Shown in pieces: positions 1 to 40,842 of a stretch of DNA of 42,772 bases. The notes under the pieces were generated by a model. It was not told the DNA's origin. It saw only the letters and a list, made by a program, of their open reading frames with translations, and ran no database searches. The position numbers and the translations under genes were made by a program. The DNA is taken from the IMG/VR virus record IMGVR_UViG_3300027759_000158, positions 1 through 42,772 of that record. One strand, 5' to 3'. This DNA comes from a virus. Numbering within the stretch: the first letter of the stretch is position 1; the number at the start of each line of letters is the position of its first letter.

Positions 1-3000
1 CGTAGGAAATCGGTTCAAGGAAAAGGTTGTTGATGTAGCTCAACGTGAGGTATCCGGATACAACGACAAGGTTAGCCCAGTCCATGAACCTAGCCTGGAA
101 TCCCTTGAGCCGGCTGTTACCTACGTCTAGGGAACCACGGATAAGATCTGCGACTTCTTCCTGCGCATCCTCGTTCAATCCTTCCTTCATCAACGCGACC
201 ATCATGTCGCTGAACTTCTTGCCGTCCGCTCCGAAGGCGCGGGCGATTTCTGCCTTCTTGACTGAAGAGTAGACGTAACGAGTGACAGTCTTGTCGATGT
301 CATCGTCCATGAATGCATCGGCGATGGCAGCTTCCTCGTCGGTAAAGGTGCGAGGGTCGGCATGATCTGGAAGGGTGGCTTGGCGGATTCCGGAGTCTCC
401 GAGCTTGACTTCGTCGAGGCGTCCGTTCTGCGCGCGCCAAGCCCAGTCTTCGGCCATCTTCTGGTAGTGGGCATCGTCCTTGGCGTCATGCTCCGCCTGT
501 AGGGCTGCAATCTGTTCATCGGCACGGTCGCGAGCGTCCTGCTGGTATTCAGCATCCGGCTTCACTCGGCGTCCTGCCTTCTGGTCTAGGTCTTTCTTGC
601 GAGCAGCCTCGGCATCTACGCCGGCGTTGATTTCATCGATTGCCTTGTTGAGAAGTCGCAGGTCGCGCTTCTGGTACATCTCCTTGGCTGCGTCGTAGAA
701 AGCCTGGAGATTCTCCTGGATCTTCTTGGAAGACCAGATGCGAGGGAAGTAGCCATCACCGGCGTCGCCGATATCCATGCCGGCTTTACGCTGGTAGTTC
801 AGCAAGTCCCTCATCATGCTGCGGAAATCAAGGACAGCCTGTCCAAGTTCGCCGGAAGGAAGAGGGTCTAGGCCGATGACGTAGCGGCGGAACTGCTTGT
901 CCCATTCCTTCCGCTGGTCGGCGTTCATCTTCGCGAATTCGTTGGCGAATCGGTTGATGATATTTGAATACTTGTTAGCGAACTGCGCGCGAATCTGCTT
1001 GATGCGCTGCGGAATCGAATTGCGGACAGCTTCCGTGACAGGCTTGCCGTCCGGACCGATGGTCGTGACTTCGGCGTCCGCGTCCGGTCCTGCCTTGGTG
1101 AATATAAGATTCGCCAATTTACGCATGGTAGGCGAATTGGGATTCTGGGAGACATGCTCCCACATCTTATCCGCTCGGCTGTCCAGGAACCGCATGGTGA
1201 CGATGGACATCGGGAATCGAGCGAGAACCTTGGCGCGATTCCACACGTCCTTCATCTGCTGCTTGGTCATCTTGCCGGCCATGCTCTTCGCCCAGGCGCC
1301 GAACTTGATGCCGGTCTTGACGATCAGCTTGGAGATGCGGTATGCCCAGGCAGACAAAGCCTGTGGGTTGATGGACAAGGCGCGGTTGCTTGGCTTGTCG
1401 TCCGGACCGAGCGTGTCTAGTTCCCATGCATCGAGAATCTTGGTGATACGCTCCATCAAGGTAACAGGATCGCCGTTAGCAGCTTCCTTTAAGTCGGCTG
1501 CCAGTTTCTTCTGTTTCTCGGTTACTGCACTCTTCGCAAGTTGCTTGGCCTTGTCTCTAGCGTACTTGGCTTCCTCGCGGAATGCAGGACCGGTCTTGGC
1601 GGCTAGCTTGTTGCCCTCTTCGGCGTCGCCCATGCGGACGGCGTCGAGGCGTTCAGCCAAAGCATCCCTCTCTCTATTAAGCTTACGAACCAAGTATTCT
1701 TGAACATCGGGAGGAGGAAGATCTTCTTTAGCCAAAGGTTCTCCGGTGACACCATCTTTAATTGGTTCATTGCCTTTGAACTGGTTGATTTGGCGATCAA
1801 GTTCACGAATCTTATCTTCGTAGAACTGGGCTAGTTCGGAGTTTGGTTGCGGCTTGTCCGGGTCGAACAGTCCTCCGCGATTGCGGCGCACCGGCGTAGT
1901 GATGTCCTTGGCCTGGTCTTCGGCATCCTGGCGAATCATGTCCGCCGCGGCGTTGGAAAAGTCGTTAGTCTTATTACCGGAATATTCCTGCCCATTGATT
2001 ACAAAGCGTTCATACTTACCATCGTGCCTCAAACGCAGAGTCTCGATAAATCCGCGCCAGCCATCTTTGGGCTTGTTCTCTATCGAGTAACTTTCGGTCA
2101 TGTTGCCGAGTTTGACGGTGACTCCGGTAGGGGAGATTGTAACAACAAGAGGAGCATAATTACCCTTCTGCTTCTCTTCCGTGGTGAAGCCGGTGTTATA
2201 AGCGATATCTGGATTGATGTCGCTTTGTGGTATAAGACCCTGCGCAAACAACGGATCGACATCCTTGTTCTTGATGGAAGGTCCGGTGGCATTCATCCAG
2301 GCAGGCCGGTTTCCGTCCATGATGTCTTTCTCCATCAACTTCGACAAAGGAGTTTCACCCTTTGGTGCGTAGTCACCCCTGTTCATCTGTTCCGTCGTTT
2401 CGGCGTCCGGCTTACCATAGTATCCTTCACCCGGCTTTAGCGTACGTTCGCTTGCCGCAATTGACTCGATTGAAGCAATGGTAGTTCCAAGCATAGACTC
2501 CATCTGCTTCTGCGAGATATTGAACGCCTTCATTACGGCGTCAAAGAACGTGCGAAGAAGGGTATGCTTGTATTCCGGGTCAGGGATGCTTGAAAGGATT
2601 CTTTGGACTTCCGGTTCAATGAGTGCGCCTACCATGAATTCAGCAAGATTTGACGCACGATAATCGATTCCCTCGTGCATAAGATCACCAGGCTTGAATC
2701 CTTTATCAGACTGCATCTTATCCGTGAACGCTACAAATGCACGACATAGGTTTCTCCACTCTGGATTAGAACCGTTCTTTGCGTAATCCCTGGCAACTTG
2801 AATTTCTTTCTCTGTCCTGGATTTCCCAACAAGCTTCTTTTGTCCTTTTGCTTTCTGCTCGGCTGTCGGCTCCATAGCTCTAGCCAATGCCTCGCGAAGG
2901 TCAGCCGGATATTTTGATACCGTAGCAGCATGTAGAATTTCTTCTACAGTAACAGCCTCTACGCTAACCCCTTCGTTCTGAAGGGCGCCGACGTAGATAA

Positions 3001-6000
3001 CCTCGTCGTATCTAAAAGGATGATCTCCATTTGGAAGATCGGTATTGTAATCAGTAACCTTATCAAGCGGCGCCCAATGTCCTCCATCGACATCTCCGCT
3101 AGTTACCTTTCGATCTAGCGACTTCTTATCTCCAACCTGTAGGATGATTTTAGCAATAGGAGCAAACACCCCATTCAAATCGATGATTTTCTGTAGAACC
3201 TGTCTTGCTGTTTTATTAGGTGCAAACCAGTCCTCACCTTCAAGCATGAAGTCGCCTAGCTTATCGTCGATATCTTCACGATTCTTGCCTTTTTCATCGT
3301 AGGAGAATGGCTTTCTTTCGTTACCAGTATCTGGCTGACTAGGTTTTCTTTGGTTTTTTGGTGCGTAATCTGCGCGGTTGTCGCTAGGCGTCTGCTCTTG
3401 GACTGGGGCGGCCGGCGTATCCTGGTAATCGTACTGCTCGTCTGGAGCGGTCGGGTCAATGGGGGCGACGCTCGGATCTACCGGAGCGTTTGGCTTGGCC
3501 GCCGGCTGACCGGACAGGATGCGTTCAATCTGCTCCTTGTTACTAGCGATACGGTCGTCCAGGTTCTTGGTCTTGCGACCTTCCTTGATGGCTTTCTCGC
3601 GCGCCTTCTGGTCGTTGATGACCTTGTTATGCAGTTGGCGGACGTCCTGCTTGAGGTTGCGGTTGAGGGCGTCAAAGCGGCGGTCGTTACGCGGATCGGC
3701 GGCAACAGGCGTACCAGACGGCTGGACTGGCGGGGTAGGCGCGCCGGACTTCTCCTTGCCCTTGAGGGCTTCCAGTCCCTGGCGTAGGCCAGAAACGAGC
3801 GACGGACGTGCGGGCTTTGCCCCGGGAGCGGGGGTTGCGGGGGCTGGGGTAGCAGGAGCAGGGGCAGGGGCTGGAGCGGGCGTAGCGGCTGCCGTAGGGG
3901 CAGGAGCAGGAGTCGGGGCAGGAGCAGGAGTCGCGTCAGCCTGCGGGGCAGGTGCGGCCTGTGGTGCAGGCGCAGGAGCAGGGGCAGGTGCGGCCGGTGC
4001 TGGTTGAGCGACTGGTGCAGGTGCTGCCTGGGCAACTGGAGCAGGGGCAGGGTCGCCAAGGAGCTGGGCGATGTTGGCTTTGATCTTCCTAATCTGCTCT
4101 TCTTTTTGGTCGGTCTTGTAATTCTTGGCCTTCATCTCCGCCAGCTTCTGCTGTTGCTCCAAGAGGAACTGGTAGGCGCGGCGTAGCTTGGACTTGGTGT
4201 CGCGATCCTGGTCATTGAACCGAGGGTCGTTGCGAGGATCGCTACCATCGTACGCGGGAGCGGGCGTAGGTGCGGGCGTGGCTGCCGTAGGCGTAGGCGT
4301 TGGTGCGGCTGCCGGAGCAGGCGCAGGTGCTGGGACGGCAGCCGCAGGTGCTGGCGTAGCGGCGGTAGGCGTGACTACAGGAGCAGGTGCGGCAGGTGCG
4401 GCTGCCGGTGCAGGGGTTGCAACAGGTGTAGCCGTAGGTGCAGGGGTTGCCTCAAGTTGAGCGGTGATGTCTCTGACTTGGTCGGTAGCAGCTTCAAATC
4501 CAGCGTTCTTACCATCAAGCGTAGCCTGCGCCAATCGGGCTGCTTCAAGCTTATCCGCGTTCTCTGGATCGTCTTTGAGGGCTGCATTGGCAGCCTCTAC
4601 TTCAAACTCGGCCTTTGCTTTTTCTGCTTCATAAGCAGATAGTACTTCATTGGCCGCGTTGAGTTGCTCTTGGAGGGCGATGGTAGGATCGACGGCAGGG
4701 TCAACAGCGGGAGCGGCAGCCGGGGCTGCGGCGGCAGCTGCCGGCGCGGGAGGTACAACCTCGCCGGCGATAGGTGCAGTAGGGGCGACCGGCGTAGGTG
4801 CTACAGGTGCAACCGGAGCGGCAGCGGGGGGAGGTTGAGCGGCAGCGGGCGGAGGTTGAGCAGCGCCAGCAGTAGGTGCAATTGGAGTAGGTTCATTGAC
4901 CATTCCAAGGCCGACCGTGTTGAGTCGAGCAGCGTCAGATGCGGCTGACCGACCATTCATACCTCCGGCTACAACATGACCGCCAACGTCTTCAGTACCA
5001 CCCATCGCTCCGCCAAGTAGCGCAGATAATAGGTAGTCCTGCGATCGACCCATGTCTCCTTTGGCTAGGTTTGCAGCAAGGGTAGTACCAACTTCTTCAA
5101 ATGCTTCCTTACCTCGTCCAATCAGCGCGCGTGAAAGCCACTTCTTTCCTCCAGGCAAAGCCTCCATTGCTCCGCCAAGACCAGTAACAGCAAGTCCTTC
5201 AACATTGGCTTCAAACCGAGCATCCTTCTTTCCTTGGACATATGCCTGGTCAAAGTTCTGCGGATCTTTCTGCGCTGCCTTAACCCATCCATCTACATCG
5301 GAAAGAACATCGACTCCGTTTTCTTCACCCCACTTTACGAGTTTCTCAAGGAGATTTGCGTCGTAAGAAGACCTAGCGGTATCAAGACCAGCTCCAGCAA
5401 GACCAGCCCACTTTGTAGCAGCCTGTCCGGCTCCGCCTCGTCGAGCTGCAGCAGCCATAACAGCGGCAGCTACAGCACCCCTTGCGGTTCCGGTTAGCGA
5501 TCCAGCAAAACCTTCCATAAGAACATCAACCGGAGCAGAAAAGAAAGCTTTGGTGGCATTCCATGTACCCTTGGCTTTATCAAATTCAGCCATTCCCTTG
5601 GTGGTACCTTGCGTAGACTTTAGAACTTGATTGGTATCATGGATTAGAAACTTTAACTTTTGAATTTCCTCGTCCAACTTAACGCCAACAACGCCAGGCT
5701 TAACACGTTGACCAAGTTCAACAGTATCATTTGGAGTAAGAGCGCGAAGATGGGTTCCAAACAACTTATTGAGATCATCTAGTTCAGCGTATTCATCTTG
5801 CGTAAAGCTTCCATATCCCATGCCCCACTTTTTGTTAAGTTCCTTTCTCCGCTCTTCAAGTCCTGGTTCACCTTGACTTGAGTAAAGGTTCTTGATGTTA
5901 AGTCGTCGTGCCAGTCCCTTATAAAGATCAGACTGGGTAGAACCAAACCAAGAGCGGGCAAACGAATCACCAATTGCATCAAAGAAAGGTTTGATAACAG

Positions 6001-6358
6001 GATCCTTTGGGCGGGTAGCACCAGTAGTGGTGTTGCCCATTCGGATACCAGGCTGCTGAAGGTTGGCATATCCTGGTGATTCAATGCCTTGTCCAAGTTG
6101 ACGTCCATCTCCTACCAATTCTTTAATTAACGAAACTCTATTCGGGTCAGTTACAGGGGTAACTGCTTGCGCGTTTGGCTGCTCGCCGGCAAAGGCTGCC
6201 GCTACGGTAGGCGCGCCGGTGACAGGCGTCGGCTTCTCGACCTGGACGACAGGCTGGTTGACGACAGGTTGCTCTGCCGGCGCGTCGAAGGCGTCGAAAG
6301 GATTTTCCTGCTTCTTGGGTGCAGGCGGGTCGAAAGCGTCGAAGGGGTTGGTTGCCAT
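1..6358 (-). CDS. Giant internal virion / polyvalent protein (C-terminus beyond window)
   Basis: The frame opened by the ATG at 6358 reads without a stop to the left edge, so at least 2,119 residues are present and the C-terminus is missing. Residues 4-10 and 19-25 are the repeat NPFDAFD. A Gly/Ala-rich helical region follows, then three Ala/Pro-rich linkers (about 493-568, 635-703 and 767-853) separate charged helical blocks. Two of those blocks start with DPRND(P/R)RF (near 706 and 886). Near 1139-1143 a zincin-like segment reads EEILH where active enzymes have HExxH. Further on lies a GYFPR segment (around 1870) of a kind I recall from other giant phage proteins. As last gene of the morphogenesis operon, in the position of T7 gp16, it is probably packaged and ejected into the cell. 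That role is inferred from position and size; no catalytic activity can be assigned. Confidence 0.85.
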   Translation of the reverse strand, partial: MATNPFDAFDPPAPKKQENPFDAFDAPAEQPVVNQPVVQVEKPTPVTGAPTVAAAFAGEQPNAQAVTPVTDPNRVSLIKELVGDGRQLGQGIESPGYANLQQPGIRMGNTTTGATRPKDPVIKPFFDAIGDSFARSWFGSTQSDLYKGLARRLNIKNLYSSQGEPGLEERRKELNKKWGMGYGSFTQDEYAELDDLNKLFGTHLRALTPNDTVELGQRVKPGVVGVKLDEEIQKLKFLIHDTNQVLKSTQGTTKGMAEFDKAKGTWNATKAFFSAPVDVLMEGFAGSLTGTARGAVAAAVMAAAARRGGAGQAATKWAGLAGAGLDTARSSYDANLLEKLVKWGEENGVDVLSDVDGWVKAAQKDPQNFDQAYVQGKKDARFEANVEGLAVTGLGGAMEALPGGKKWLSRALIGRGKEAFEEVGTTLAANLAKGDMGRSQDYLLSALLGGAMGGTEDVGGHVVAGGMNGRSAASDAARLNTVGLGMVNEPTPIAPTAGAAQPPPAAAQPPPAAAPVAPVAPTPVAPTAPIAGEVVPPAPAAAAAAPAAAPAVDPAVDPTIALQEQLNAANEVLSAYEAEKAKAEFEVEAANAALKDDPENADKLEAARLAQATLDGKNAGFEAATDQVRDITAQLEATPAPTATPVATPAPAAAPAAPAPVVTPTAATPAPAAAVPAPAPAPAAAPTPTPTAATPAPTPAPAYDGSDPRNDPRFNDQDRDTKSKLRRAYQFLLEQQQKLAEMKAKNYKTDQKEEQIRKIKANIAQLLGDPAPAPVAQAAPAPVAQPAPAAPAPAPAPAPQAAPAPQADATPAPAPTPAPAPTAAATPAPAPAPAPATPAPATPAPGAKPARPSLVSGLRQGLEALKGKEKSGAPTPPVQPSGTPVAADPRNDRRFDALNRNLKQDVRQLHNKVINDQKAREKAIKEGRKTKNLDDRIASNKEQIERILSGQPAAKPNAPVDPSVAPIDPTAPDEQYDYQDTPAAPVQEQTPSDNRADYAPKNQRKPSQPDTGNERKPFSYDEKGKNREDIDDKLGDFMLEGEDWFAPNKTARQVLQKIIDLNGVFAPIAKIILQVGDKKSLDRKVTSGDVDGGHWAPLDKVTDYNTDLPNGDHPFRYDEVIYVGALQNEGVSVEAVTVEEILHAATVSKYPADLREALARAMEPTAEQKAKGQKKLVGKSRTEKEIQVARDYAKNGSNPEWRNLCRAFVAFTDKMQSDKGFKPGDLMHEGIDYRASNLAEFMVGALIEPEVQRILSSIPDPEYKHTLLRTFFDAVMKAFNISQKQMESMLGTTIASIESIAASERTLKPGEGYYGKPDAETTEQMNRGDYAPKGETPLSKLMEKDIMDGNRPAWMNATGPSIKNKDVDPLFAQGLIPQSDINPDIAYNTGFTTEEKQKGNYAPLVVTISPTGVTVKLGNMTESYSIENKPKDGWRGFIETLRLRHDGKYERFVINGQEYSGNKTNDFSNAAADMIRQDAEDQAKDITTPVRRNRGGLFDPDKPQPNSELAQFYEDKIRELDRQINQFKGNEPIKDGVTGEPLAKEDLPPPDVQEYLVRKLNRERDALAERLDAVRMGDAEEGNKLAAKTGPAFREEAKYARDKAKQLAKSAVTEKQKKLAADLKEAANGDPVTLMERITKILDAWELDTLGPDDKPSNRALSINPQALSAWAYRISKLIVKTGIKFGAWAKSMAGKMTKQQMKDVWNRAKVLARFPMSIVTMRFLDSRADKMWEHVSQNPNSPTMRKLANLIFTKAGPDADAEVTTIGPDGKPVTEAVRNSIPQRIKQIRAQFANKYSNIINRFANEFAKMNADQRKEWDKQFRRYVIGLDPLPSGELGQAVLDFRSMMRDLLNYQRKAGMDIGDAGDGYFPRIWSSKKIQENLQAFYDAAKEMYQKRDLRLLNKAIDEINAGVDAEAARKKDLDQKAGRRVKPDAEYQQDARDRADEQIAALQAEHDAKDDAHYQKMAEDWAWRAQNGRLDEVKLGDSGIRQATLPDHADPRTFTDEEAAIADAFMDDDIDKTVTRYVYSSVKKAEIARAFGADGKKFSDMMVALMKEGLNEDAQEEVADLIRGSLDVGNSRLKGFQARFMDWANLVVVSGYLTLSYINNLFLEPISY

Positions 6359-22923: not shown

Positions 22924-22929
22924 GTGCGG

Positions 22930-22958
22930 ATAGTGTACCAGTCTGGCTGTAGATGCAA
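22930..22958 (-). promoter_or_regulatory. Promoter of the morphogenesis operon (leaderless type)
   Basis: On the minus strand TTGCAT (22958-22953), 17 bp, CACTAT (22935-22930), then CCGCAC and the fibre ATG. A start site 7 nt after the -10 would fall on the A of the ATG. Sequence-only call. Confidence 0.5.
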
Positions 22959-23376
22959 GAGATGGCGATGTAGGAGAAAGTTTTTTGCCTACACGGATTT
23001 TTCCGAGCGGGGGAGGATAGGAATTTTCGCGGGCGAGCGTGGGCGTGGGCGGGGGTGCGCCTGGGACGCGGGTGTGTGCGTACGCACAGCTGCGTGTGTA
23101 CGCCCAGGCTACGCACGCGGTTAGATCACGCGCCAGGTGACGCGTGACGCACGTTCCATCCTGCGGCGAAGGGTCGGACCGGTCCACCTCACCACGGCCT
23201 TGCCACGCCGTCCGACCCACCCGACCGACCGCAACCTTGCACCGCCACGCCATCGGGTCGCCACGCCTCGCCGAGGTGGGTAGGTTGGCTACCTGGTCGA
23301 GGCTTGTCGTCGTGTGCGTGACACTTGGGAGCGAGGCGGGGAAGGGGTGGGCAGAAAGGTCGTTGAAAAAATGTGG

Positions 23377-23407
23377 TTGACGCAACGCACACCCTCCACA
23401 TTGTCGG
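23377..23407 (+). promoter_or_regulatory. Promoter-like element, copy 1 (TTGACG ... CACCCTCCACATTGTCGG)
   Basis: TTGACG at 23377-23382 and the core CACCCTCCACATTGTCGG at 23390-23407, 47 bp before the first island gene. The core recurs at 25510 and 26318 with one or two differences, there directly joined to TTGACA; here 7 bp more separate the two parts. Confidence 0.5.
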
Positions 23408-23453
23408 AGATGTCGCAAGACAACCAACCAACAAACAACCAACGCCCACCGCT

Positions 23454-23681
23454 ATGAAAACCACCACCGCCCTCCGCTTCACTTTGCAAACCACGCAATC
23501 CGGTTTGTTCTACACGCCGCGCAACGACGCCGCGAAAAGCGTCATCCCGAAAGGTCGCAAATGCCTTCGCTCGTTTGAGATGGCGAAGCTAATCGAGGAG
23601 GGTGCGAAGGTTGAGCTTAACCTCAACCCTTACCTTGCCGTTGAATATTGGGTCGCCGTCAATCCGGTTGCCAACGCCTAA
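23454..23681 (+). CDS. Island protein 1, unknown, 75 aa
   Basis: Starts at ATG 23454 after the spacer CCAACGCCCACCGCT, giving MKTTTALRFTLQTTQSG. A basic middle (PRNDAAKSVIPKGRKCLRSF) precedes a short helix and a strand pair (VELNLNPYLAVEYWVAV). It may be a small alpha/beta nucleic-acid or protein binder; I recognise no family. First gene of the plus-strand island, directly behind promoter-like copy 1, so it is the first made. The Thr-rich N-terminus continues the C/A-rich character of the leader into the coding sequence. Confidence 0.7.
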   Translation: MKTTTALRFTLQTTQSGLFYTPRNDAAKSVIPKGRKCLRSFEMAKLIEEGAKVELNLNPYLAVEYWVAVNPVANA

Positions 23682-23721
23682 CCCTTTCCCACCCACACCA
23701 CACCCAACCCACACCACCGCT

Positions 23722-23925
23722 ATGAAACTCACCCCCGACCAGCTCAAAGCCCTCGCCGAGGAGGCTATGCATCTCGCCTTCGTCCACCTCGCCGACGGCC
23801 TCGACCCCGACGCCGCGCACGACCTCGGCGGCTTCTTCGGCTACCAAACCGAAGCCCTCGCCGACAGGGTCCAGGCCGACCTCCTCAACGCCGCCCAGCT
23901 CGCCAACGACCACGTCAACGGCTAA
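23722..23925 (+). CDS. Island protein 2, acidic helical, 67 aa
   Basis: ATG 23722 follows CACCCAACCCACACCACCGCT. The product MKLTPDQLKALAEEAMHLAF continues as an acidic, Ala-rich, two- or three-helix protein ending HVNG. It is rich in Asp and Glu (ADGLDPDAAHDLGG). No family recognised. High GC, strong preference for C in third positions, as in the other island genes. Confidence 0.7.
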   Translation: MKLTPDQLKALAEEAMHLAFVHLADGLDPDAAHDLGGFFGYQTEALADRVQADLLNAAQLANDHVNG

Positions 23926-23965
23926 CCCTTCCCACACCCAACCCACACCCAACCAACCCACGCCA

Positions 23966-24280
23966 ATGCCTACCACCGCCCAGCGCACCGCCGCCCTCGT
24001 CCGCTACATCAACAACCACGACAAAGCCCAGGGCCGCCCCCGCGGCTGGTCCAATCGCACCGCCGCACCGGACGACCTCAATGTGCGGGTGTCGCCCCAC
24101 CACCTCGGCGGTCGTGTCTTGCTCGCCGACATTGACAACCACACGCCTTGCTCGCCCTTCGCCGTCGTGACCGAAGACGAGGCGGCGACCGCCAAGGAAT
24201 TCACCCTTGAGGCGGACCTTACGGATGACGATTGCGTCACGCACCGCGGCACCACCTTCGTCGTCGTTTACCTCGGCTAA
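23966..24280 (+). CDS. Island protein 3, unknown, 104 aa
   Basis: ATG 23966 follows a spacer made of CCCACACCCAACCCACACCC-like repeats. The protein starts MPTTAQRTAALVRYINNHDK and has a basic patch (RPRGWSNR) near residue 24, then alternating strands (VRVSPHHLGGRVLLADID) and an acidic end with DLTDDDC. A small mixed alpha/beta fold is likely; no known family. It shares the MPTT opening with the next gene. Confidence 0.7.
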   Translation: MPTTAQRTAALVRYINNHDKAQGRPRGWSNRTAAPDDLNVRVSPHHLGGRVLLADIDNHTPCSPFAVVTEDEAATAKEFTLEADLTDDDCVTHRGTTFVVVYLG

Positions 24281-24316
24281 CCTTTCACCCAACCCAACCC
24301 ACAACCGCCCACACCT

Positions 24317-24652
24317 ATGCCCACCACCACCCTCCTTCGCATCGCCGTCCGCTTCGCCAGGGCGAGCGGCAAGCCTTGCACCGGTCGAGACGCCAAGCGC
24401 ATCGACGAGGCTTTGCTCAACGGCTCGGCCGAGCTTGTTCACGGCTGCGACTACGCCGTGAACCACACGACCCACTTTGAACCTCAAGCCCTCACCGGTG
24501 AGGTAGAGGTCGTCTTTGAGGTCGAGGTCGCCAACTACCCCCGCGGCCGCCTCACCACCGCCGACCTCCTCGCCGACGAGGTAGCCGACCAGGTCGGTTG
24601 CTTCACCCCCGAAGCCTATGAGGTCCAGTCCACCACGACGACCCTCGCCTGA
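24317..24652 (+). CDS. Island protein 4, unknown, 111 aa
   Basis: ATG 24317 follows CAACCGCCCACACCT. Starts MPTTTLLRIAVRFARASGK; a long strand segment VEVVFEVEVANYPRG occurs near residue 62, then an acidic helix (TADLLADEVADQVG). Two Cys only. The N-terminal RIAVRF stretch resembles that of island protein 1 (LRFTL), perhaps a shared strand. No family recognised. Confidence 0.68.
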   Translation: MPTTTLLRIAVRFARASGKPCTGRDAKRIDEALLNGSAELVHGCDYAVNHTTHFEPQALTGEVEVVFEVEVANYPRGRLTTADLLADEVADQVGCFTPEAYEVQSTTTTLA

Positions 24653-24691
24653 TCTTCCCAACCCACACCCAACCCACACCACACCACAACG

Positions 24692-25447
24692 ATGAAAGAC
24701 ACCACCACCACCGCCCTCCTCGCCGCTCTCTCCGCCCTTCGGGACGAAGCGAGCAAGCGGGTGGAAGCCGCCCAGGCAAGCCTCACCGCCGCGCAAGCCC
24801 TCCCCAAGGGCAAGCGAGGTAAGCGTGACGCCGTCACCCAAGCCGACGCCAACCGGACCGCCGCCTGGGGTTTGCTCAACGAGATTAAAGCGAAGATTAG
24901 GGAGGCGATGAAGGGCGACGCAAGGGCCGCCGTAGAGGCCGCCCTCGCCACGCTCGACCACCGCGACGCCGACCCGATCTTACGCCAAGCCCTCGCCGCT
25001 CGGCACGACAAGCGACGCCAGGCCGCTATCCACCCCGACGACACGGCGCACGGCGTACACGTCCGCGTGTCGCTTGACCGGTTCGGCTTGCCCAACTATA
25101 TCGAGCTTTCAATGCTCGCCACGCCCGACGAACATCGCAAGACGGTCGAGATGTGGCTGGCCAGGGCGACGACCGACGAGCAAAAGGCCGCGGCCCAGGT
25201 TTACCTCGACAACCCCGAAGCGCACCCGCTCGACCACTTCGGATCGTCGGTCACTATCTCGCTCGGCCACGGCGACACCCGCAACACCTACGGCGTGAAC
25301 GGCTCGACCTTCTCCACCCACAACGACGACGAGGCGGCCAGGCTGCGGACCCTTCACGATGTGGCGTGGCACCTGCGGTCCGCCCTCAACGACGCCGACC
25401 TCCCGAAGCAAGAGGAGCTTGAGAAGATCCTCGACGGCGAAGTGTAA
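24692..25447 (+). CDS. Island protein 5, unknown, 251 aa
   Basis: ATG 24692 follows CCAACCCACACCACACCACAACG. Residues 1-110 are a charged Ala-rich helical region (EAAQASLTAAQALPKGKRGK). The middle is beta-rich (VHVRVSLDRFGLPNYIELSM, about 129-148) and the end has GHGDTRNTYGVNGSTFSTHN near 193-212 and a final helix. One of the two largest island proteins. A helical arm plus globular domain could bind nucleic acid or a host protein; no catalytic motif is clear. A hairpin follows the stop (25460-25483). Confidence 0.72.
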   Translation: MKDTTTTALLAALSALRDEASKRVEAAQASLTAAQALPKGKRGKRDAVTQADANRTAAWGLLNEIKAKIREAMKGDARAAVEAALATLDHRDADPILRQALAARHDKRRQAAIHPDDTAHGVHVRVSLDRFGLPNYIELSMLATPDEHRKTVEMWLARATTDEQKAAAQVYLDNPEAHPLDHFGSSVTISLGHGDTRNTYGVNGSTFSTHNDDEAARLRTLHDVAWHLRSALNDADLPKQEELEKILDGEV

Positions 25448-25459
25448 ACCCACCGGTCG

Positions 25460-25483
25460 GGGTGGCGTCGCAAGGCGTCACCC
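25460..25483 (+). terminator. Hairpin after island gene 5, possible weak terminator
   Basis: GGGTGGCG (25460-25467) pairs with CGTCACCC (25476-25483), 8 bp including one G-U. No T-run follows (next is TGCCCACC), so termination is uncertain. It lies before promoter-like copy 2, so it could insulate the two sub-units. Confidence 0.4.
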
Positions 25484-25503
25484 TGCCCACCCTCTTTCCA
25501 CAC

Positions 25504-25532
25504 TTGACACCCTCCACCTTGTAGGACATCAA
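25504..25532 (+). promoter_or_regulatory. Promoter-like element, copy 2 (TTGACA-N17-CATCAA)
   Basis: TTGACA (25504-25509) is followed by CCCTCCACCTTGTAGG and then CATCAA (25527-25532), 17 bp from the -35-like box. The methyltransferase promoter (35260-35232) has the same CATCAA at the same spacing. It lies 21 bp before the ATG of island gene 6. Confidence 0.55.
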
Positions 25533-25552
25533 CCCTCTACCAACCCAACGCC

Positions 25553-26302
25553 ATGACCACCGCAACCCTCACCCTCGCCTCGACCTTCCTTCACGTCACG
25601 CCGACCTCGGCAAACGTCAAGACCGGTCCGATCCTCGTCACCACCACCTCGGCCCTCACCTGCCCCGACGCCTGCCCTTTCAAGCGCACCCGCAACGGCG
25701 TGAAGGGTTGCTATGCCGACGGCGGCCCGCTCGCTATGCATTGGCAAGCCGTCACCCTTGGCAAGCGAGGCGAGCCGTGGGCCGACGCCCTCCTCACCCT
25801 GGCCGACGAGCTACGCCGCAAGGGTAAGGGAGCGACCTGGCGACACAACCAGGCGGGCGACCTGCCCGGCCAAGGCGACGAGATTGACGCCGCTGCGGTG
25901 GCCGCCCTCGTCAAGGTCAACGCCGCCGCCTCGGCGCACGGCTTCACCTACACACACAAGCCGCTCGTCGGATCTACTCAAGCCGACGCAAACCTCGTCG
26001 CCGTCCAGGCTGCCAACGCTGGCGGCTTCACGGTCAACGCCTCGGCCAACAACCTCGCCCAGGCTGACACCCTCGCCGCCCTGGGTGGTGTGCCGGTGGT
26101 GGTGGTGGTACCTCACGACGCACCCGACACCCTCGCCACGCCGAGCGGTCGCAAGGTGGTGGTCTGCCCTGCCCAACGACGTGACGACGTGACGTGTGCA
26201 AGCTGTCGCCTTTGCTCTCGGTCCGACCGCTCGGTGATCGTCGCCTTTCGCGCACACGGTGCCAGCTATCGCCGAGCCGAAGCCGCGGCAAAGGCCGCTT
26301 AA
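25553..26302 (+). CDS. Cys-cluster phage protein of the DUF7227 type
   Basis: 249 residues from ATG 25553, leader CTACCAACCCAACGCC. The N-terminal part has TCPDACPFKR...GCYADGGPLAMHW (about 36-64), with Cys37, Cys41 and Cys53. The middle is beta-alpha-like with WRHNQAGDLPGQG (about 97-109), FTYTHKPL and VNASANNLAQAD. The end has CASCRLCSRSDR, a second Cys group. I recognise this from many phages and some bacteria as the DUF7227 family, function unknown. Two Cys groups suggest a metal or Fe-S site; related folds include TIM-barrel-like proteins with similar Cys groups, but that is conjecture. Confidence 0.85.
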   Translation: MTTATLTLASTFLHVTPTSANVKTGPILVTTTSALTCPDACPFKRTRNGVKGCYADGGPLAMHWQAVTLGKRGEPWADALLTLADELRRKGKGATWRHNQAGDLPGQGDEIDAAAVAALVKVNAAASAHGFTYTHKPLVGSTQADANLVAVQAANAGGFTVNASANNLAQADTLAALGGVPVVVVVPHDAPDTLATPSGRKVVVCPAQRRDDVTCASCRLCSRSDRSVIVAFRAHGASYRRAEAAAKAA

Positions 26303-26311
26303 CTTTACCCC

Positions 26312-26333
26312 TTGACACCCTCCACCTTGTCGG
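26312..26333 (+). promoter_or_regulatory. Promoter-like element, copy 3 (TTGACACCCTCCACCTTGTCGG)
   Basis: TTGACA (26312-26317) then CCCTCCACCTTGTCGG, identical to copy 2 over 19 of its 22 bases without a break and differing only at TAGG/TCGG. A weak -10 (CACACC) lies 17 bp on. It precedes island gene 7. Confidence 0.55.
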
Positions 26334-26365
26334 TCACACCTTCACCCACACCCACCGCCTACCAT

Positions 26366-26593
26366 ATGAAAACACCCGCCAACATTGCCGCCGCCTCACG
26401 CCTCGCCCGCCGCAGGGAGGAGCGCCTCCGAAAGGAAGCCGAGGTAGCCACCCGCCACGCCTCGCGCCTCGCCCGCAACCAAGCGGTCCGAGATTATCGC
26501 AAGGCGAAAGCCGACGGCACCCTGCCACCGGTCACACCTCCTTCCGACATGCCCGACGTCGGCGGGTACGATCTCAACGGCAACCTCCTTTGA
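26366..26593 (+). CDS. Island protein 7, basic helical, 75 aa
   Basis: ATG 26366 follows CACCCACACCCACCGCCTACCAT. The first 50 residues are strongly basic and helical with Arg and Lys (SRLARRREERLRKEAEVATR), and the end is Pro/Gly/Asp (SDMPDVGGYDLNGNLL). Likely to bind nucleic acid or an acidic partner. No family recognised. Confidence 0.65.
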   Translation: MKTPANIAAASRLARRREERLRKEAEVATRHASRLARNQAVRDYRKAKADGTLPPVTPPSDMPDVGGYDLNGNLL

Positions 26594-26630
26594 CCCTATG
26601 CCCTGCCCATCGCATCGCCCCTTCCCACCC

Positions 26631-26735
26631 ATGCACCTACCCAACCCCCGCCGCTCCCTCTTCGCCTATGCCCTCGCCCTTGTCGGGCGTTGGTTGCCCG
26701 CTCGCGTCCTGCTCGCCCTCAACCGCAAGCGCTAA
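26631..26735 (+). CDS. Island protein 8, tiny, 34 aa
   Basis: ATG 26631 follows CCCCTTCCCACCC, the same C/A-rich spacer as its neighbours; an in-frame ATG at 26598 would give 45 residues. The peptide MHLPNPRRSLFAYALALVGR continues WLPARVLLALNRKR: a hydrophobic stretch between basic ends, so it may be a small membrane-interacting protein. Found by reading the spacer; too short for standard calling. Confidence 0.45.
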   Translation: MHLPNPRRSLFAYALALVGRWLPARVLLALNRKR

Positions 26736-26773
26736 CCCCTCACCCACACCCAACCCATACCCAACCCACACCC

Positions 26774-27130
26774 ATGATCGAAGTCACCATCACATGCAAC
26801 ACCGGCAAGACCTGGACGACCAGGTTCAACGGTGATCACCAGTCCGCTGTCCGTTCCTTCCTCGGCCAGGTCTTTACCGACGAGGATGACACGACCGGCA
26901 GCGAGACGAAGCACCGCGTCGTCAGCGTCATCACTAACCCGGTCACCGTCGACCAGCCGGCTGTCACCGTCGAGCTGCTACTCTCGCGGGCGGAGTTTAT
27001 CCTGGCCACGTTCCGCGCCGACTATCAGCGGGGCGAGACGGAGGACATGCGAGAGAAGTATCTCGACGAGATCCGCGACGAGATCGACAAGGCTGCCGCC
27101 GTCGTCTCCTTCCTCAAGGCTAACATCTAA
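26774..27130 (+). CDS. Island protein 9, unknown, 118 aa
   Basis: ATG 26774 follows CCCAACCCATACCCAACCCACACCC. N-terminus MIEVTITCNTGKTWTTRFNG looks like a beta hairpin, then an acidic patch (FTDEDDTTGSETKH), then strand VTVELLLSRAEF and a long charged helix (RGETEDMREKYLDEIRDEID). No family recognised. Its third-position bias is less extreme than that of genes 1-6. Confidence 0.7.
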   Translation: MIEVTITCNTGKTWTTRFNGDHQSAVRSFLGQVFTDEDDTTGSETKHRVVSVITNPVTVDQPAVTVELLLSRAEFILATFRADYQRGETEDMREKYLDEIRDEIDKAAAVVSFLKANI

Positions 27131-27143
27131 CCCACCCACGCAC

Positions 27144-27353
27144 ATGACCCAACCAACCGACAACGCCCAGGTCCGCAAGGATCTAGAGGATCACCTCCGT
27201 CTCTGCCAGCGCCGCGTCCTCGACGCGGACCGGTACGGCACGATCACCCAACGCGAGGAAGCCGAGGGCTGCCGCCTCGACGCAATGGCGACCCTTGTCG
27301 CCTTCAACATCCGGACCATCCGCATGGTCCCGGTCACCCACATCCGCGCCTAA
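27144..27353 (+). CDS. Island protein 10, small helical, 69 aa
   Basis: ATG 27144 follows CCCACCCACGCAC. MTQPTDNAQVRKDLEDHLRL continues as a charged helical protein with Arg, Asp and Glu, ending RMVPVTHIRA. No family recognised. The next gene starts directly after its stop (TAACATG), so genes 10 and 11 should be coupled. Confidence 0.68.
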   Translation: MTQPTDNAQVRKDLEDHLRLCQRRVLDADRYGTITQREEAEGCRLDAMATLVAFNIRTIRMVPVTHIRA

Positions 27354-27354
27354 C

Positions 27355-27672
27355 ATGAGCAAGCCCAAGCTGGCCGGCTTGTCCTTCGACGGATGGGTGA
27401 GCAAGTACACGCCTATGATCAACCACCTCTCACCCGGTGCTGCCTTCGACGGCTTGATGTTTGAGACGCATGGCAATGAGCTTGCCCTGGTCCTCTCCTA
27501 CGCCAACGGCGCGATGGGCAGATCCTACCGCCGCAAGGTGTGGACGCTGGTCGAGGATGACGAAGGCCAGGCCGTGATCGTCGAGGGGTATCACTTGGTC
27601 AACCGCCTCGGTTACTTCCTCACGGTCAAGGCTGCCGCGGCTGGCGTCCAGTATAACGTCACCCTGGACTGA
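27355..27672 (+). CDS. Island protein 11, unknown, 105 aa
   Basis: ATG 27355 lies one base after the previous stop. MSKPKLAGLSFDGWVSKYTP begins a mixed alpha/beta protein with LVLSYANGAMGRSYRRKVW (about 45-63) and a final stretch RLGYFLTVKAAAAGVQYNVTL. No family recognised. Last gene of the island; an intrinsic terminator starts 24 bp after its stop. Confidence 0.7.
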   Translation: MSKPKLAGLSFDGWVSKYTPMINHLSPGAAFDGLMFETHGNELALVLSYANGAMGRSYRRKVWTLVEDDEGQAVIVEGYHLVNRLGYFLTVKAAAAGVQYNVTLD

Positions 27673-27695
27673 CCGGTCGGACCTGTCGGTAACCT

Positions 27696-27726
27696 GCCCC
27701 GCCTTAACTGGCGGGGCTTTTGTTTT
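27696..27726 (+). terminator. Intrinsic terminator ending the plus-strand island
   Basis: GCCCCGCC (27696-27703), loop TTAACT, GGCGGGGC (27710-27717), then TTTTGTTTT. A textbook terminator for plus-strand transcripts; it overlaps the stop region of the convergent rusA gene. Confidence 0.9.
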
Positions 27727-28168
27727 ACTGTATCCAGTCGGGGAAGCGGGCGGCTGGTGGTGGGGATAAGGATCGGTCGTCGTCGTGCAGCGTCATGACC
27801 AGTCCACCCTTGGCTGCCCATGTCTTCGTCACCACTAGGGTCGAGACGGTGGCGTCATCCTTCAGTAGGCCGGCGGCCATCACCGCGTCGAGGGCGAGCT
27901 TGGCCAGGTTGTCGGCGTCGGGTCGGAAGGTGTGGGGCAGGCCATGCCGGTCGGCTTTAGGGGTAGCCAGGTCGAAGCGTAGGACGGCGGCGATGGCTGC
28001 CCCTTGGATCTGGCCGTGCGCTTCGACGGCGAGCTTGGCGGTGGACTGGATAAGATCCTTCCACCTTTTCGCGTTGGCGTCGGCGGTCGAGATGACCCTG
28101 CCCCGGATGAACCTGGGCCTGGGTTGTGGGCGGGGGTTGCCTTCGACGTTAAGCAGCACGATGTCCAT
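27725..28168 (-). CDS. rusA: RusA-type Holliday junction resolvase
   Basis: 147 residues. The family signature is clear: an N-terminal GNPRPQPRPR loop (10-19) and PDADNLAKLALDAVMAAG (83-100) with Asp84, Asp86 and Asp94, then KDDATV with Asp104/105. RusA proteins are dimeric endonucleases that cut four-way junctions, here probably resolving replication or recombination branches before packaging. Convergent with the plus-strand island. Its promoter puts the start codon almost at the transcription start. Confidence 0.92.
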   Translation of the reverse strand: MDIVLLNVEGNPRPQPRPRFIRGRVISTADANAKRWKDLIQSTAKLAVEAHGQIQGAAIAAVLRFDLATPKADRHGLPHTFRPDADNLAKLALDAVMAAGLLKDDATVSTLVVTKTWAAKGGLVMTLHDDDRSLSPPPAARFPDWIQ

Positions 28169-28173
28169 GCGTA

Positions 28174-28202
28174 AGCCTACCCCTTGCGCTGTCCTGGGTC
28201 AA
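28174..28202 (-). promoter_or_regulatory. rusA promoter, near-leaderless
   Basis: On the minus strand TTGACC (28202-28197), 17 bp, TAGGCT (28179-28174), then TACGC and the ATG. The predicted transcript begins within or next to the start codon, like the fibre promoter. Confidence 0.5.
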
Positions 28203-28598
28203 CCCTTCCCCTCGACTATAGGGACAGCGAGGCGACGCCCTTCCCCAAAGGGATAGGGCCAAAGCCCGAGGATGGCCTATTAGTCTTAATACAAGGGGTA
28301 TCCTCGCTTCCTCGCCAGTCCATAAGTGACTGGTGTTTCGTTACTTATGGACGAGGAAGGGGGGTGCGCGTTTTCTCAAAACCCTTGAGGAAGGGGGTGG
28401 TAAATCTGCTTAACCCCATATCAAACAACAACTTAACCTAGTATCCTCGACGCCTTGAGGAAGCGGGGAAAGGGGGGTGGTAAAACCCCTTCCCCATCCT
28501 CGCCTTTCTCCCACTAACTGGAGGACATTCTGATCGTGCGCTTCGCGCACTAGCTTTGCTCCTGGTTCTGCCGGTGGGAGGTACAGGGCAGAGATGAA
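28203..28598. other. Non-coding region with several hairpins and a duplicated motif
   Basis: No gene found. Hairpin A: GTCCATAAGT (28318-28327) pairs with ACTTATGGAC (28343-28352), with outer CTTCCTC/GAGGAAG extending it by 7 bp across a 4-nt bulge. Hairpin B: GGGGAA-A-GGGG (28465-28475) pairs with CCCCTTCCCC (28486-28495). Hairpin C: GTGCGC-TTC-GCGCAC (28536-28550). CCTTGAGGAAG followed by GGGGTGGTAAA occurs twice (28383-28404 and 28453-28484). Candidates are an RNA, terminators for the minus operon ending at 28599, or a replication origin. Confidence 0.6.
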
Positions 28599-28874
28599 TC
28601 ATTCCCAGTCCGAGAAGTCTATGTCCCTGGCTGCCTCTTCGACCGCGTCGACCAGCTCCGAATTATCGCAAATCTCCACCTCCTCGCCGGCGGAATTAGT
28701 GCATGAAATGATGTTCGTCTCCTCCCAATCAATCTCCCAATGGCCGCACTCCTCGGTCTGCCTACGGCCACCCCAATCATGATCAAAGGAGTCGTCTACC
28801 CATTGCACCTCAATCTCCAGGACGACGTCGTACGTCTCGCCCTTGTGGCGCACAACCATCTCTCGCTCGCTCAT
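28599..28874 (-). CDS. Highly acidic small protein, 91 aa
   Basis: By my count 28 of 91 residues are Asp or Glu against about six Arg/Lys, with five Trp. Segments such as WVDDSFDHDWGG and EEAARDIDFSDWE carry clustered negative charge. Start ATG overlaps the preceding stop (ATGA). Such composition occurs in DNA-mimic anti-restriction proteins (T7 Ocr is one), but also in other small phage proteins; the function is unknown. Confidence 0.75.
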   Translation of the reverse strand: MSEREMVVRHKGETYDVVLEIEVQWVDDSFDHDWGGRRQTEECGHWEIDWEETNIISCTNSAGEEVEICDNSELVDAVEEAARDIDFSDWE

Positions 28875-30144: not shown

Positions 30145-30550
30145 CTTGTTTGGTCTGTTTCCAGTTAAAGCCGTTCTCAATGCACCAGCGGTGAACATTG
30201 ACGTGAGGGACGCCAAGCTTGAAGGCTACGTCGCCCTGGGTCTTGCCTTCAGCGGCAGCCCGGACAATCACATCCTCCCACTTGGATTTGTCGTACCTGC
30301 GACACTTGCGGGCGCGTACCTTCTTGAATCCAATCCCAAGGATCTCCGCCCAGCTTTTGATGGTCGTGATGGAGAAGCCTAGCTTCCTGGCTACGACCGG
30401 CATGCAATGTCCAGCCTCGGCCAGGCGACGAAGGTCCGCCCTGTATTCGCATATCCTGGCGGCGCGTGATGCGAACATCAGCCTTCCCCGAAAGGACACG
30501 GCTCCGCGGTTTTGAAAGCGCAGGATTGGGGACTGGATGATCTCGCTCAT
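30125..30550 (-). CDS. Helix-turn-helix DNA-binding protein, 141 aa
   Basis: Two HTH-like units: LRRLAEAGHCMPVVARKLGF with ITTIKSWAEILG (about 40-73), and IVRAAAEGKTQGDVAFKLGV with PHVNVHRWCIENG (about 94-127). Both resemble the homeodomain-like/RNA-polymerase-sigma-type HTH found in small phage regulators. The start overlaps the upstream stop (ATGA). A regulator or packaging-site binder is likely, given that terS follows; the partner site is unknown. Confidence 0.78.
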   Translation of the reverse strand: MSEIIQSPILRFQNRGAVSFRGRLMFASRAARICEYRADLRRLAEAGHCMPVVARKLGFSITTIKSWAEILGIGFKKVRARKCRRYDKSKWEDVIVRAAAEGKTQGDVAFKLGVPHVNVHRWCIENGFNWKQTKQDAKAKR

Positions 30551-30981
30551 TGGGCTGCATTAAGGGTGGCTGCCTTACGCATCTTACGCTCCGGCACGAA
30601 GTCGATGCGGTAGCCGTAGCGGGAGAAGCCGGTCATGCCTAGGTTATAGGCAAGCCAAGTCTCACCTAGGTTGGGCATCCTGCCGAGCTTGATGATCAAC
30701 CTGGCTCGCAGGTAGGACAGCCAGGAGGTGGCGTACTGGCGGGCGATGAGAGGGTCGGACGCCTTGGAGTAAGGGTAGGTGGGCAGGCCGGCTTTGCGTC
30801 GCGCCTCGGAGCAATCGGACCAAGCGGAGCGATGAAACTGGAATGGTCCTTTCGCTAGACCGAAGTCCCCTGGCGGGGTGGCTGCTCCTCGGCCAGAGGA
30901 TTCAATATGTTCGACGGCATCGACCCATCGCGTAGGCATTGGGGCGAAGGCCGCAGAGGCTAATAGTAATTCGGTAATCAT
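30547..30981 (-). CDS. Lytic transglycosylase / lysozyme-like protein
   Basis: 144 residues. SLT-like features: catalytic Glu27 within IESSG, GPFQF (about 46-50) in the place of the usual GLMQ motif, and AYNLG near residue 113 (AYNAG type). The N-terminus (ITELLLASAAFA) is a short hydrophobic segment that may be a signal or membrane anchor. The leader CTTCCCAACCGAC precedes the ATG and is shared with the gene at 40535. It could be the endolysin or an entry enzyme; no other muralytic gene is visible in the window. Confidence 0.82.
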   Translation of the reverse strand: MITELLLASAAFAPMPTRWVDAVEHIESSGRGAATPPGDFGLAKGPFQFHRSAWSDCSEARRKAGLPTYPYSKASDPLIARQYATSWLSYLRARLIIKLGRMPNLGETWLAYNLGMTGFSRYGYRIDFVPERKMRKAATLNAAQ

Positions 30982-40071: not shown

Positions 40072-40088
40072 GTGGTTGGGTTGGGAGA

Positions 40089-40813: not shown

Positions 40814-40842
40814 GGTATGCCTACTGGGTGTAGGTGCGTCAA
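40814..40842 (-). promoter_or_regulatory. Promoter upstream of HTH gene and recombination operon
   Basis: TTGACG (40842-40837), 17 bp, CATACC (40819-40814), then 25 nt to the GTG. -35 box agrees with TTGAC(A/C/G) elsewhere in the window. Confidence 0.55.

Follow-up and report, generated by a model that had tools for sequence, protein, structure and literature searches.

The window analysed here (42,772 nucleotides, the whole of positions 1 to 42,772 of the IMG/VR record IMGVR_UViG_3300027759_000158) raises the question of what a run of eleven small plus-strand genes represents when all other substantial genes identified lie on the minus strand, including the ORF at 2-6358 that continues beyond the contig end. 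The island is confirmed as real and much as the initial annotation described it: 11 ORFs fit the span (23454-27672, Table 1), flanked by a tail-fibre gene and a RusA gene that both lie on the minus strand. Its GC content per kb is 0.63-0.66, compared with 0.47-0.62 in the rest of the window, and C occupies 63% of its fourfold sites (G 20%), compared with 36% in the structural genes and 47% in the replication genes, in agreement with the GC-rich codons noted earlier; the island coding strand is enriched in both C and A. Only g6 belongs convincingly to a known family (DUF7227, PF23872; E 1.4e-77, 260.7 bits, curated cut-off 27), the other ten proteins being unrecognised, as had been claimed. Coding support varies across the island, from g4 and g7, which lack homologues in the relatives examined, to the conserved g8, where substitutions relative to L002, L085 and L097 fall mostly at third codon positions.

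Table 1. Features of the island and related elements in the window.
Feature	Position	Strand	Remarks
Divergent intergenic region, tail-fibre gene (minus) / island (plus)	22924..23453	.	69-81% conserved in L002, L085, L097
Diverged promoter-like element copy, TTGAC... CCCTCCACATTGTCGG, island start	23377..23410	+	
g1 leader, G-poor, C/A-rich	23411..23453	+	
g1, 75 aa	23454..23681	+	homologues: L097 (41%), L120 (43%)
g2 leader, G-poor, C/A-rich	23682..23721	+	42-nt G-free run 23677-23718
g2, 67 aa	23722..23925	+	homologues: L097, L164
g3 leader, G-poor, C/A-rich	23926..23965	+	G-free run 23922-23961
g3, 104 aa	23966..24280	+	homologue: L097 (44%)
g4 leader, G-poor, C/A-rich	24281..24316	+	G-free run 24277-24306
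g4, 111 aa	24317..24652	+	no homologue in relatives examined
g5 leader, G-poor, C/A-rich	24653..24691	+	39-nt G-free run 24652-24690
g5, 251 aa	24692..25447	+	homologues: L002, L085, L097 (35-39%)
Promoter-like element TTGACACCCTCCACCTTGTAGGACAT	25504..25529	+	49 nt upstream of g6 start
g6 leader, G-poor	25530..25552	+	
g6, 249 aa, DUF7227 (PF23872)	25553..26302	+	profile match; predicted TIM-barrel-like fold
Promoter-like element TTGACACCCTCCACCTTGTCGGTCAC	26312..26337	+	54 nt upstream of g7 start
g7 leader, G-poor	26338..26365	+	
g7, 75 aa	26366..26593	+	no homologue in relatives examined
g8, 45 aa	26598..26735	+	87-93% identity in L002, L085, L097
g9 leader, G-free, C/A-rich	26736..26773	+	44-nt G-free run 26732-26775
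g9, 118 aa	26774..27130	+	L002 76%, L085 69%
g10 leader, short (13 nt), C-rich	27131..27143	+	
g10, 69 aa	27144..27353	+	75-76% in L088, L090, L092
g11, 105 aa	27355..27672	+	L116 50%, L085 62%; no G-free leader
Terminator-like hairpin and T run, island end	27696..27727	+	hairpin itself 27696-27717
Diverged promoter-like element copy TTGACGCACCTACACCCAGTAGGCATACC, upstream of replication operon	40814..40842	-	

The same slot, with both flanks, is found in 15 of the 79 terminase-relative loci examined, most of the remaining loci being truncated. L088, L090 and L092, with terminases 99, 98 and 96% identical to that of the window, have only one of its eleven island genes, g10 in each case, while L097 (94%) has four. 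Four each are also found in L002 and L085, where the islands are incomplete, one in L116 and L120, and none in the other islands compared. The 157 island ORFs called form 82 families, 51 of them singletons, and gene order changes too, with g1-g2-g3 of the window corresponding to g3-x-g2-g1 in L097. Gene turnover in the slot far outpaces that of the core genome. Judged from these comparisons, the contents of the slot are exchanged nearly gene by gene at a conserved position; the earlier suggestion of a transferred cassette holds only in this altered sense. Homology ends lie within 8 nt of non-coding sequence in 81 of 127 cases, compared with 26.8 expected, although this may simply reflect fast divergence of the spacers. 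No recurrent inverted repeats were found at the spacers.

Nearly every island gene is preceded by a C- and A-rich leader of 20-45 nt that is nearly devoid of G, with A at -6, frequently CCCA at -9 to -6, no Shine-Dalgarno (SD) sequence and hardly any RNA structure. The spacers had been called uniform, which is correct and even understated: G averages 7% in the leaders and 27% in island coding sequence, and 7 of 11 leaders have at most two G per 30 nt, a scarcity matched by just 0.19% of island coding 30-mers. Mean start-region folding energy (MFE) is -3.1 for island leaders, -16.1 for island coding sequence, -8.4 for late starts and -8.9 for replication starts, and anti-SD pairing of -4 kcal or better upstream of the start was found for none of the 11 island genes and for 3 of 88 in related islands. 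Among the 88 leaders from 11 related islands, a pool skewed towards G-poor leaders (but not towards CCCA at -9) because the automatic gene caller preferred ORFs with a leader and overlooked some genes, 62 have at most two G, compared with 27 of 213 late-gene starts of relatives; A occupies -6 in 62 of the 88, compared with 80 of the 213, and MFE is 0 in 59. Of 71 G-poor leaders, 30 carry CCCA at -9 to -6, compared with a mean of 3.8 and a maximum of 10 over 1000 shuffles.

The same type of leader stands before homologous genes and before genes of unrelated families, and a few replication genes are also preceded by C-rich leaders. The signal is weaker in more distant relatives (13 of 36 in L100, L103 and L111, and 1 of 18 in L138, L142, L143 and L146). 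A scan of viral contigs with the leader pattern returned 23 stretches, with at least three leaders on one strand only in L258 and L265. A small search of the open-access literature found no description of such a leader. Judged by eye, a G-quadruplex or i-motif role of the spacers looks unlikely, there being too few CCC runs in the leaders of g1, g6 and g7.

A second element, TTGACACCCTCCAMCYTGTNGG, lies upstream of some leader-bearing genes, at a distance of 43-57 nt from the start codon. There are 11 such sites, spread over 8 contigs (window included) and in front of different gene families. A relaxed search expression gave 23 matches, of which 12 fit this context and 11, in other contexts, were discarded as chance matches; one candidate from the element scan, L083, proved to be a chance match inside coding DNA. 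In the window the element precedes g6 and g7, and a diverged copy precedes the replication operon at 40842 on the minus strand. Since this copy precedes the replication operon, the island is probably expressed early, a reading that rests on a shared element corresponding to no recognised promoter. The initial annotation had proposed an early module with its own promoters. The shared element and the C-rich leaders of a few replication genes favour the early module, with timing itself inferred; of the promoters, sigma-70 sites are not supported (0 matches in the region; shuffles 0.5), but a conserved non-sigma-70 element is present. The proposed terminator is present as a hairpin with 8 of 8 GC pairs followed by a T run, although terminator-like matches over the whole region (3 found, 4.1 in shuffles) are not above chance. 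Nine of 15 relatives also have a hairpin with a T run close to where the island ends, though the sequences differ.

Taking together the observed position, strand, gene turnover, reordering, common leader and common promoter-like element, we favour, with a probability of about 0.68, the reading that the island represents what this phage carries in a hypervariable slot for early accessory genes, each with an autonomous SD-free start. The slot is fixed between the tail-fibre and RusA genes in this phage group and runs opposite to the remaining genome; its transcription would be early, driven by promoters within or close to the TTGACACCCTCCAMCYTGTNGG element and extending as far as the hairpin at 27696. 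Each leader would act as a stand-alone, SD-independent ribosome entry site through its G-free, unstructured RNA, with A at -6 as a positional cue and possible contact with ribosomal protein S1. In both E. coli and Flavobacterium, A at -6 and absence of structure increase initiation that does not depend on an SD (PMC6847099). Recombination at spacers would shuffle the slot, and because every gene comes with a start signal of its own, set in a spacer of nearly uniform kind, its loss, gain or movement would be harmless to its neighbours. The passengers would be accessory genes differing from phage to phage, plausibly aimed at the host or its defences, and a putative role of island genes in host takeover or counter-defence is plausible.

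A reading of the island as one dedicated multi-gene system for host takeover or counter-defence, inherited whole, draws on the grouping of small unknown genes into a single opposed operon, whose element is likely early, and on archaeal viruses, where small early genes with a common regulatory sequence include anti-defence genes (PMC11065993). However, one of eleven genes is common at 96-99% terminase identity and the order is shuffled. Because the island genes are not co-inherited, they do not make up a single multi-gene system, and the earlier view of this island as the likeliest home of a new system finds no support in that form: the genes are scattered among relatives, an outcome that the annotation itself had named as refuting. 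Neither did 10 window proteins and 119 island proteins match any family described as anti-defence in Pfam and PHROGs, libraries that are poor in such families. Inheritance as a single system is quite improbable overall, and as far as this group is concerned a fixed unit is refuted, though individual genes may yet target defences.

The leaders themselves could have other explanations. A classical rut site is untranslated RNA with C in excess of G, and the C-rich, G-poor composition of the leaders agrees with Rho-utilisation-like or other transcription elements acting in polarity or antitermination rather than as translation starts. This is unlikely, as CCCA and A-6 are fixed relative to the start codon, which is expected of initiation and not of Rho loading, and g8 and g11 directly adjoin the preceding gene without any leader. 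Pairing of the leaders with 16S rRNA, as suggested for C-rich ribosome binding sites obtained by in vitro selection, would fit the efficiency of such sites in a reconstituted system and the C-rich 5' UTRs of some phages, although the same source also reports poor function in E. coli (PMC3310771). The longest match, however, barely exceeds composition-matched shuffles (7, 10, 6 and 27 of 100 reach the observed value, one figure for each of four 16S genes; these belong to three genomes, not those of the phage's host), and this reading is considered unlikely. It is highly improbable that the leaders are a by-product of strand-specific composition and unconstrained spacers: the island coding strand is indeed rich in C and A, but G makes up 20% of its fourfold sites as against 7% of the leaders, equally G-poor stretches are rare in its coding sequence, and the signal is position-specific and common to homologous and unrelated genes.

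Both hypervariable slots and start-associated elements have been described before. In Cluster K mycobacteriophages, the SAS/ESAS elements, which are linked to translation starts, are likewise conserved directly upstream of many small-gene starts of different families, as the island leaders are; the SAS is GGGATAGGAGCCC, half of the copies being accompanied by inverted repeats (PMC3203893). Unlike it, the island leaders are G-free, C-rich, longer and without a hairpin, with no fixed sequence except CCCA/A-6, and, nearly G-free as they are, no GGGATAGGAGCCC-like sequence was found before island starts. Early small-gene clusters of archaeal viruses also combine a start-proximal conserved signal with quickly changing, likely early small genes, and anti-CRISPRs are shown among them, but there the element is a TATA/BRE promoter for each gene (PMC11065993), whereas the per-gene element of the island looks translational. 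The PeSL cassettes of T4-like phages are similar in having repeated intergenic elements amid intense gene shuffling, each PeSL combining an early promoter and a stem-loop (as cited in PMC4503421). The island leaders, by contrast, are unstructured, no stem-loop per intergenic element was found, and the promoter-like element precedes some genes only. Folding recombination sites of the integron type were not found between the genes, the spacers being unstructured and lacking a recurrent inverted repeat. Similar in composition are the C-rich, non-SD ribosome binding sites from ribosome display, known from in vitro selections and E. coli tests with 16S pairing suggested, in an account that also notes C-rich 5' UTRs in some phages (PMC3310771). 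The C-rich region of this (Barendt) type is present in the island (54% C in the 11 leaders), but the C/A-rich leaders recur natively over one slot and 16S pairing is unsupported.

Should the leader prove to be a genuine start signal, it would be a natural, repeated case of SD-free initiation in C-rich form, and early accessory genes could be told from late genes by sequence alone. We suggest only tentatively that the G-free C/A-rich start (CCCA at -9 to -6) may be a common plug, a modular SD-free cassette by which early accessory genes are swapped singly, usable for mining host-directed proteins. Leader and promoter-like element together are a possible bait for hundreds of unknown early phage proteins in screens for host inhibition and counter-defence, paralleling the use of a regulatory motif in archaeal viruses (PMC11065993).

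Among annotated phages the closest are Microcystis phage Mae-Yong1326-1, at 49% for the terminase and 46% for the capsid, and Rhizobium phage RHph_N65, at 45% and 40%. Terminase relatives in genome contigs are no more than 42% identical and come from mixed phyla, and the candidate host contigs G124 and G126 were found to be non-phage or unrelated. A calibrated leader pattern matches 12 times among 11 phage sequences, a density of 61 per Mb with none in the control. In no genome from the phyla of G008 (80 genomes scanned), G001 (39) and G002 (40) does its density go beyond about 17 per Mb; it exceeds its own control in several Pseudomonadota-side genomes, for example G360 (38 versus 3).

The g5 and g6 proteins were also compared by structure. 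The AlphaFold model of g5 (pLDDT 85) has no significant match in the PDB; its single viral match is weak (A0A6J7WJX8, E 8e-6), and a search for relatives with the g5 alignment found nothing beyond the three contigs already known. For g6 the predicted fold is TIM-barrel-like, with radical SAM enzymes closest in the top VIA rows (Z at most 6.8), and its invariant C37, C41 and C53 are spaced unlike the CX3CX2C of radical SAM cluster cysteines. Judging from the predicted model, DUF7227 probably forms a TIM barrel that is radical-SAM-like but divergent.

The minus strand of this complete virus record (42,772 bases) carries the structural genes, among them terminase, portal and capsid, and the replication genes, among them RusA, AAA helicase, cytosine methylase and DEAD helicase. 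The island of eleven plus-strand genes (g1 to g11) that the initial annotation placed between two minus-strand operons is confirmed, divergent from the structural operon and convergent with the replication operon. Its 3' end is marked by a hairpin and a T run, and hairpins of a different sequence occur near the same site in 9 of 15 relatives. The coordinates of the island, its flanks and its signals are collected in the table.

Features of the island and its surroundings in the window
Feature	Position	Strand	Remark
Island	23454-27672	+	11 ORFs, between structural and replication genes
Left flank, tail-fibre gene	start near 22923	-	
Right flank, RusA	27725-28168	-	PF05866, E 4.7e-15
g6 (DUF7227)	25553-26302	+	
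G-free run	23677-23718		42 nt
G-free run	23922-23961		40 nt
G-free run	24652-24690		39 nt
G-free run	26732-26775		44 nt
Promoter-like element	25504 and 26312	+	TTGACACCCTCCACCTTGTNGG
Diverged form of element	23377-23410	+	
Diverged copy of element	40842	-	before first replication gene (looser scan)
C-rich leaders	40075, 40535, 40842	-	before first replication genes; leader-like TTAATCTCCCAACCCAACCACATG at 40075
Palindromic segment	23060-23140		rich in GTACGCAC/GTGCGTAC
Non-coding region	28170-28600		repeated GAGGAAGSGGGG and GGTGGTAAA-like blocks; inverted repeat around 28320

Most island genes in the window are preceded by a G-free run of C and A. The 30 nt before the eleven starts are 54% C, 31% A, 8% T and 7% G, G making up 27% of the island coding sequences, and seven of these leaders contain no more than two G, compared with 0.19% of 30-mers from the island coding sequences. 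Good anti-Shine-Dalgarno pairing was found for none of the eleven leaders, whereas 1 of the 14 late genes and 5 of the 15 replication genes in the window show it. The island start regions are nearly unfolded (mean fold energy -3.1 kcal, versus -8.4 for late starts, -8.9 for replication starts and -16.1 for island coding sequence). The 88 leaders of 11 related islands include 62 with at most two G; among late-gene homologues in the relatives the figure is 27 of 213 distinct starts. There is also a positional signal: A stands at -6 from the start codon in 62 of the 88 leaders versus 80 of the 213 late starts (in the window, 8 of 11 island genes, 4 of 13 late genes and 4 of 14 replication genes), and 30 of the 71 G-poor leaders have CCCA precisely at -9 to -6 (mean 3.8, maximum 10 in 1000 shuffles). 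The leader signal fades with distance, to 13 of 36 in loci L100, L103 and L111 and 1 of 18 in L138, L142, L143 and L146. A leader-pattern scan of viral contigs also returned loci L258 and L265, each with at least three C-rich leaders on one strand. In some genomes of the phylum of genome G008 (G360, G333, G325 and G313), CCCA-H5-ATG is well above a reversed control (e.g. 38 vs 3), a hint that some bacteria have a C-rich start context of a weaker kind.

Judged by their sequence, the leaders resemble sites of translation initiation that do not depend on a Shine-Dalgarno sequence. For E. coli and Flavobacterium johnsoniae, initiation is described as enhanced by A at -6 and -3 and by a lack of structure, and expression from a T4 leader as falling by about 40-70% when A-6 was changed (PMC6847099). 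C-rich start regions are described as efficient in a reconstituted system and present in some phages, yet working poorly in E. coli (PMC3310771). Compared with non-host 16S, the leaders showed no pairing clearly in excess of shuffles. Going beyond the sequence facts, we infer that each leader would act as its gene's own start within a near-uniform spacer, and that a gene so equipped could be swapped while its neighbours stay intact, in keeping with the gene turnover at this site.

This turnover can be followed in the slot between the tail-fibre gene and RusA. A terminase scan gave 98 relatives, and 80 of them were retained; both flanks are present in 15 of 79 new loci examined (L088, L090, L092, L097, L100, L103, L111, L116, L118, L120, L138, L142, L143, L146 and L150), the others being mostly too short. 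The flank-to-flank distance ranges from 993 to 6,897 nt among relatives and is 4,801 nt in the window. Island genes do not travel together in this phage group: L088, L090 and L092 (terminase identity to the window 99%, 98% and 96%) share only one of the eleven, g10 (75-76%). L097 (94%) has four, L116 and L120 one each and the remaining nine two-flank loci none, while the incomplete islands of L002 and L085 have four each. An automatic caller, which missed some genes and included a few doubtful ORFs, gave 157 ORFs from 21 islands or pieces, falling into 82 families, 51 of them singletons. Gene order is shuffled too, window g1, g2, g3 corresponding in L097 to g3, another gene, g2, g1. The window and L002 share two homologous blocks: one begins at the g5 stop and reaches just past the g7 start, the other spans the interval between the g7 stop and the g10 start. 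Of the 127 block ends in ten islands, 81 fall no more than 8 nt from non-coding sequence, against an expectation of 26.8, a count that takes in both directions of each pair and part of which fast spacer divergence would explain.

The slot is conserved in position, and its gene content is not. The initial annotation's view of a possible early, counter-defence or transferred module, perhaps a new system, holds in part: position and strand stand and an early role gains support, whereas the genes change among relatives and are not kept together. Conserved slots in which small genes change fast are a known kind; as far as we have searched, the undescribed part is the shared G-free C/A-rich start signal, of which a limited literature search found no earlier description. 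In the more distant relatives L142, L143 and L146 only about two genes occupy the slot, including a homologue (L142:14656-15021, L143:14299-14664, L146:4487-4852, reversed-locus coordinates) of window 30547-30981, whose place in the window is on the opposite strand and outside the slot.

The promoter-like element before some leaders does not fit the sigma-70 pattern in the window. When 2.9 million viral contigs were scanned with an exact degenerate pattern, the element turned up in four contigs of the phage group and at one chance site. A looser scan of 26 sequences gave 11 sites, spread over 8 contigs and placed 43-57 nt upstream of the starts of different genes, and 11 further matches in unrelated contexts. 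Mainly because the element also precedes the replication operon, the island is probably transcribed early. The palindromic segment, in the divergent intergenic region and kept in form in L002, is a possible operator; the non-coding region beyond RusA may be an origin of replication or have a regulatory role.

The expectation of mostly unrecognised genes and one DUF7227-type protein was borne out by Pfam and PHROGs profile searches, in which g6 alone among ten window proteins has a family. For 119 related-island proteins, Pfam matched five (GP88 in three, DUF7227 in one, DUF1281_C in one) and PHROGs nine families, one described as DNA ligase and the rest without description. The predicted structure of g5 (good model, pLDDT 85) matched no known fold. 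Foldseek gave no significant match for the confident g6 model (pLDDT 90, pTM 0.89). Radical SAM enzymes (QueE, viperin, pyruvate formate-lyase activase, spore photoproduct lyase and lipoyl synthase) lead the VIA rows for g6, with Z 5.9-6.8, scores too low to be relied on by themselves. DUF7227 has three N-terminal and four C-terminal invariant cysteines (37, 41, 53, 205, 215, 218 and 221 in g6), which would fit one or two metal clusters, and from its model looks like a divergent radical-SAM-type TIM barrel. The L100 and L103 islands carry GP88 (PF17338) in place of DUF7227, and both families touch phrog_1392.
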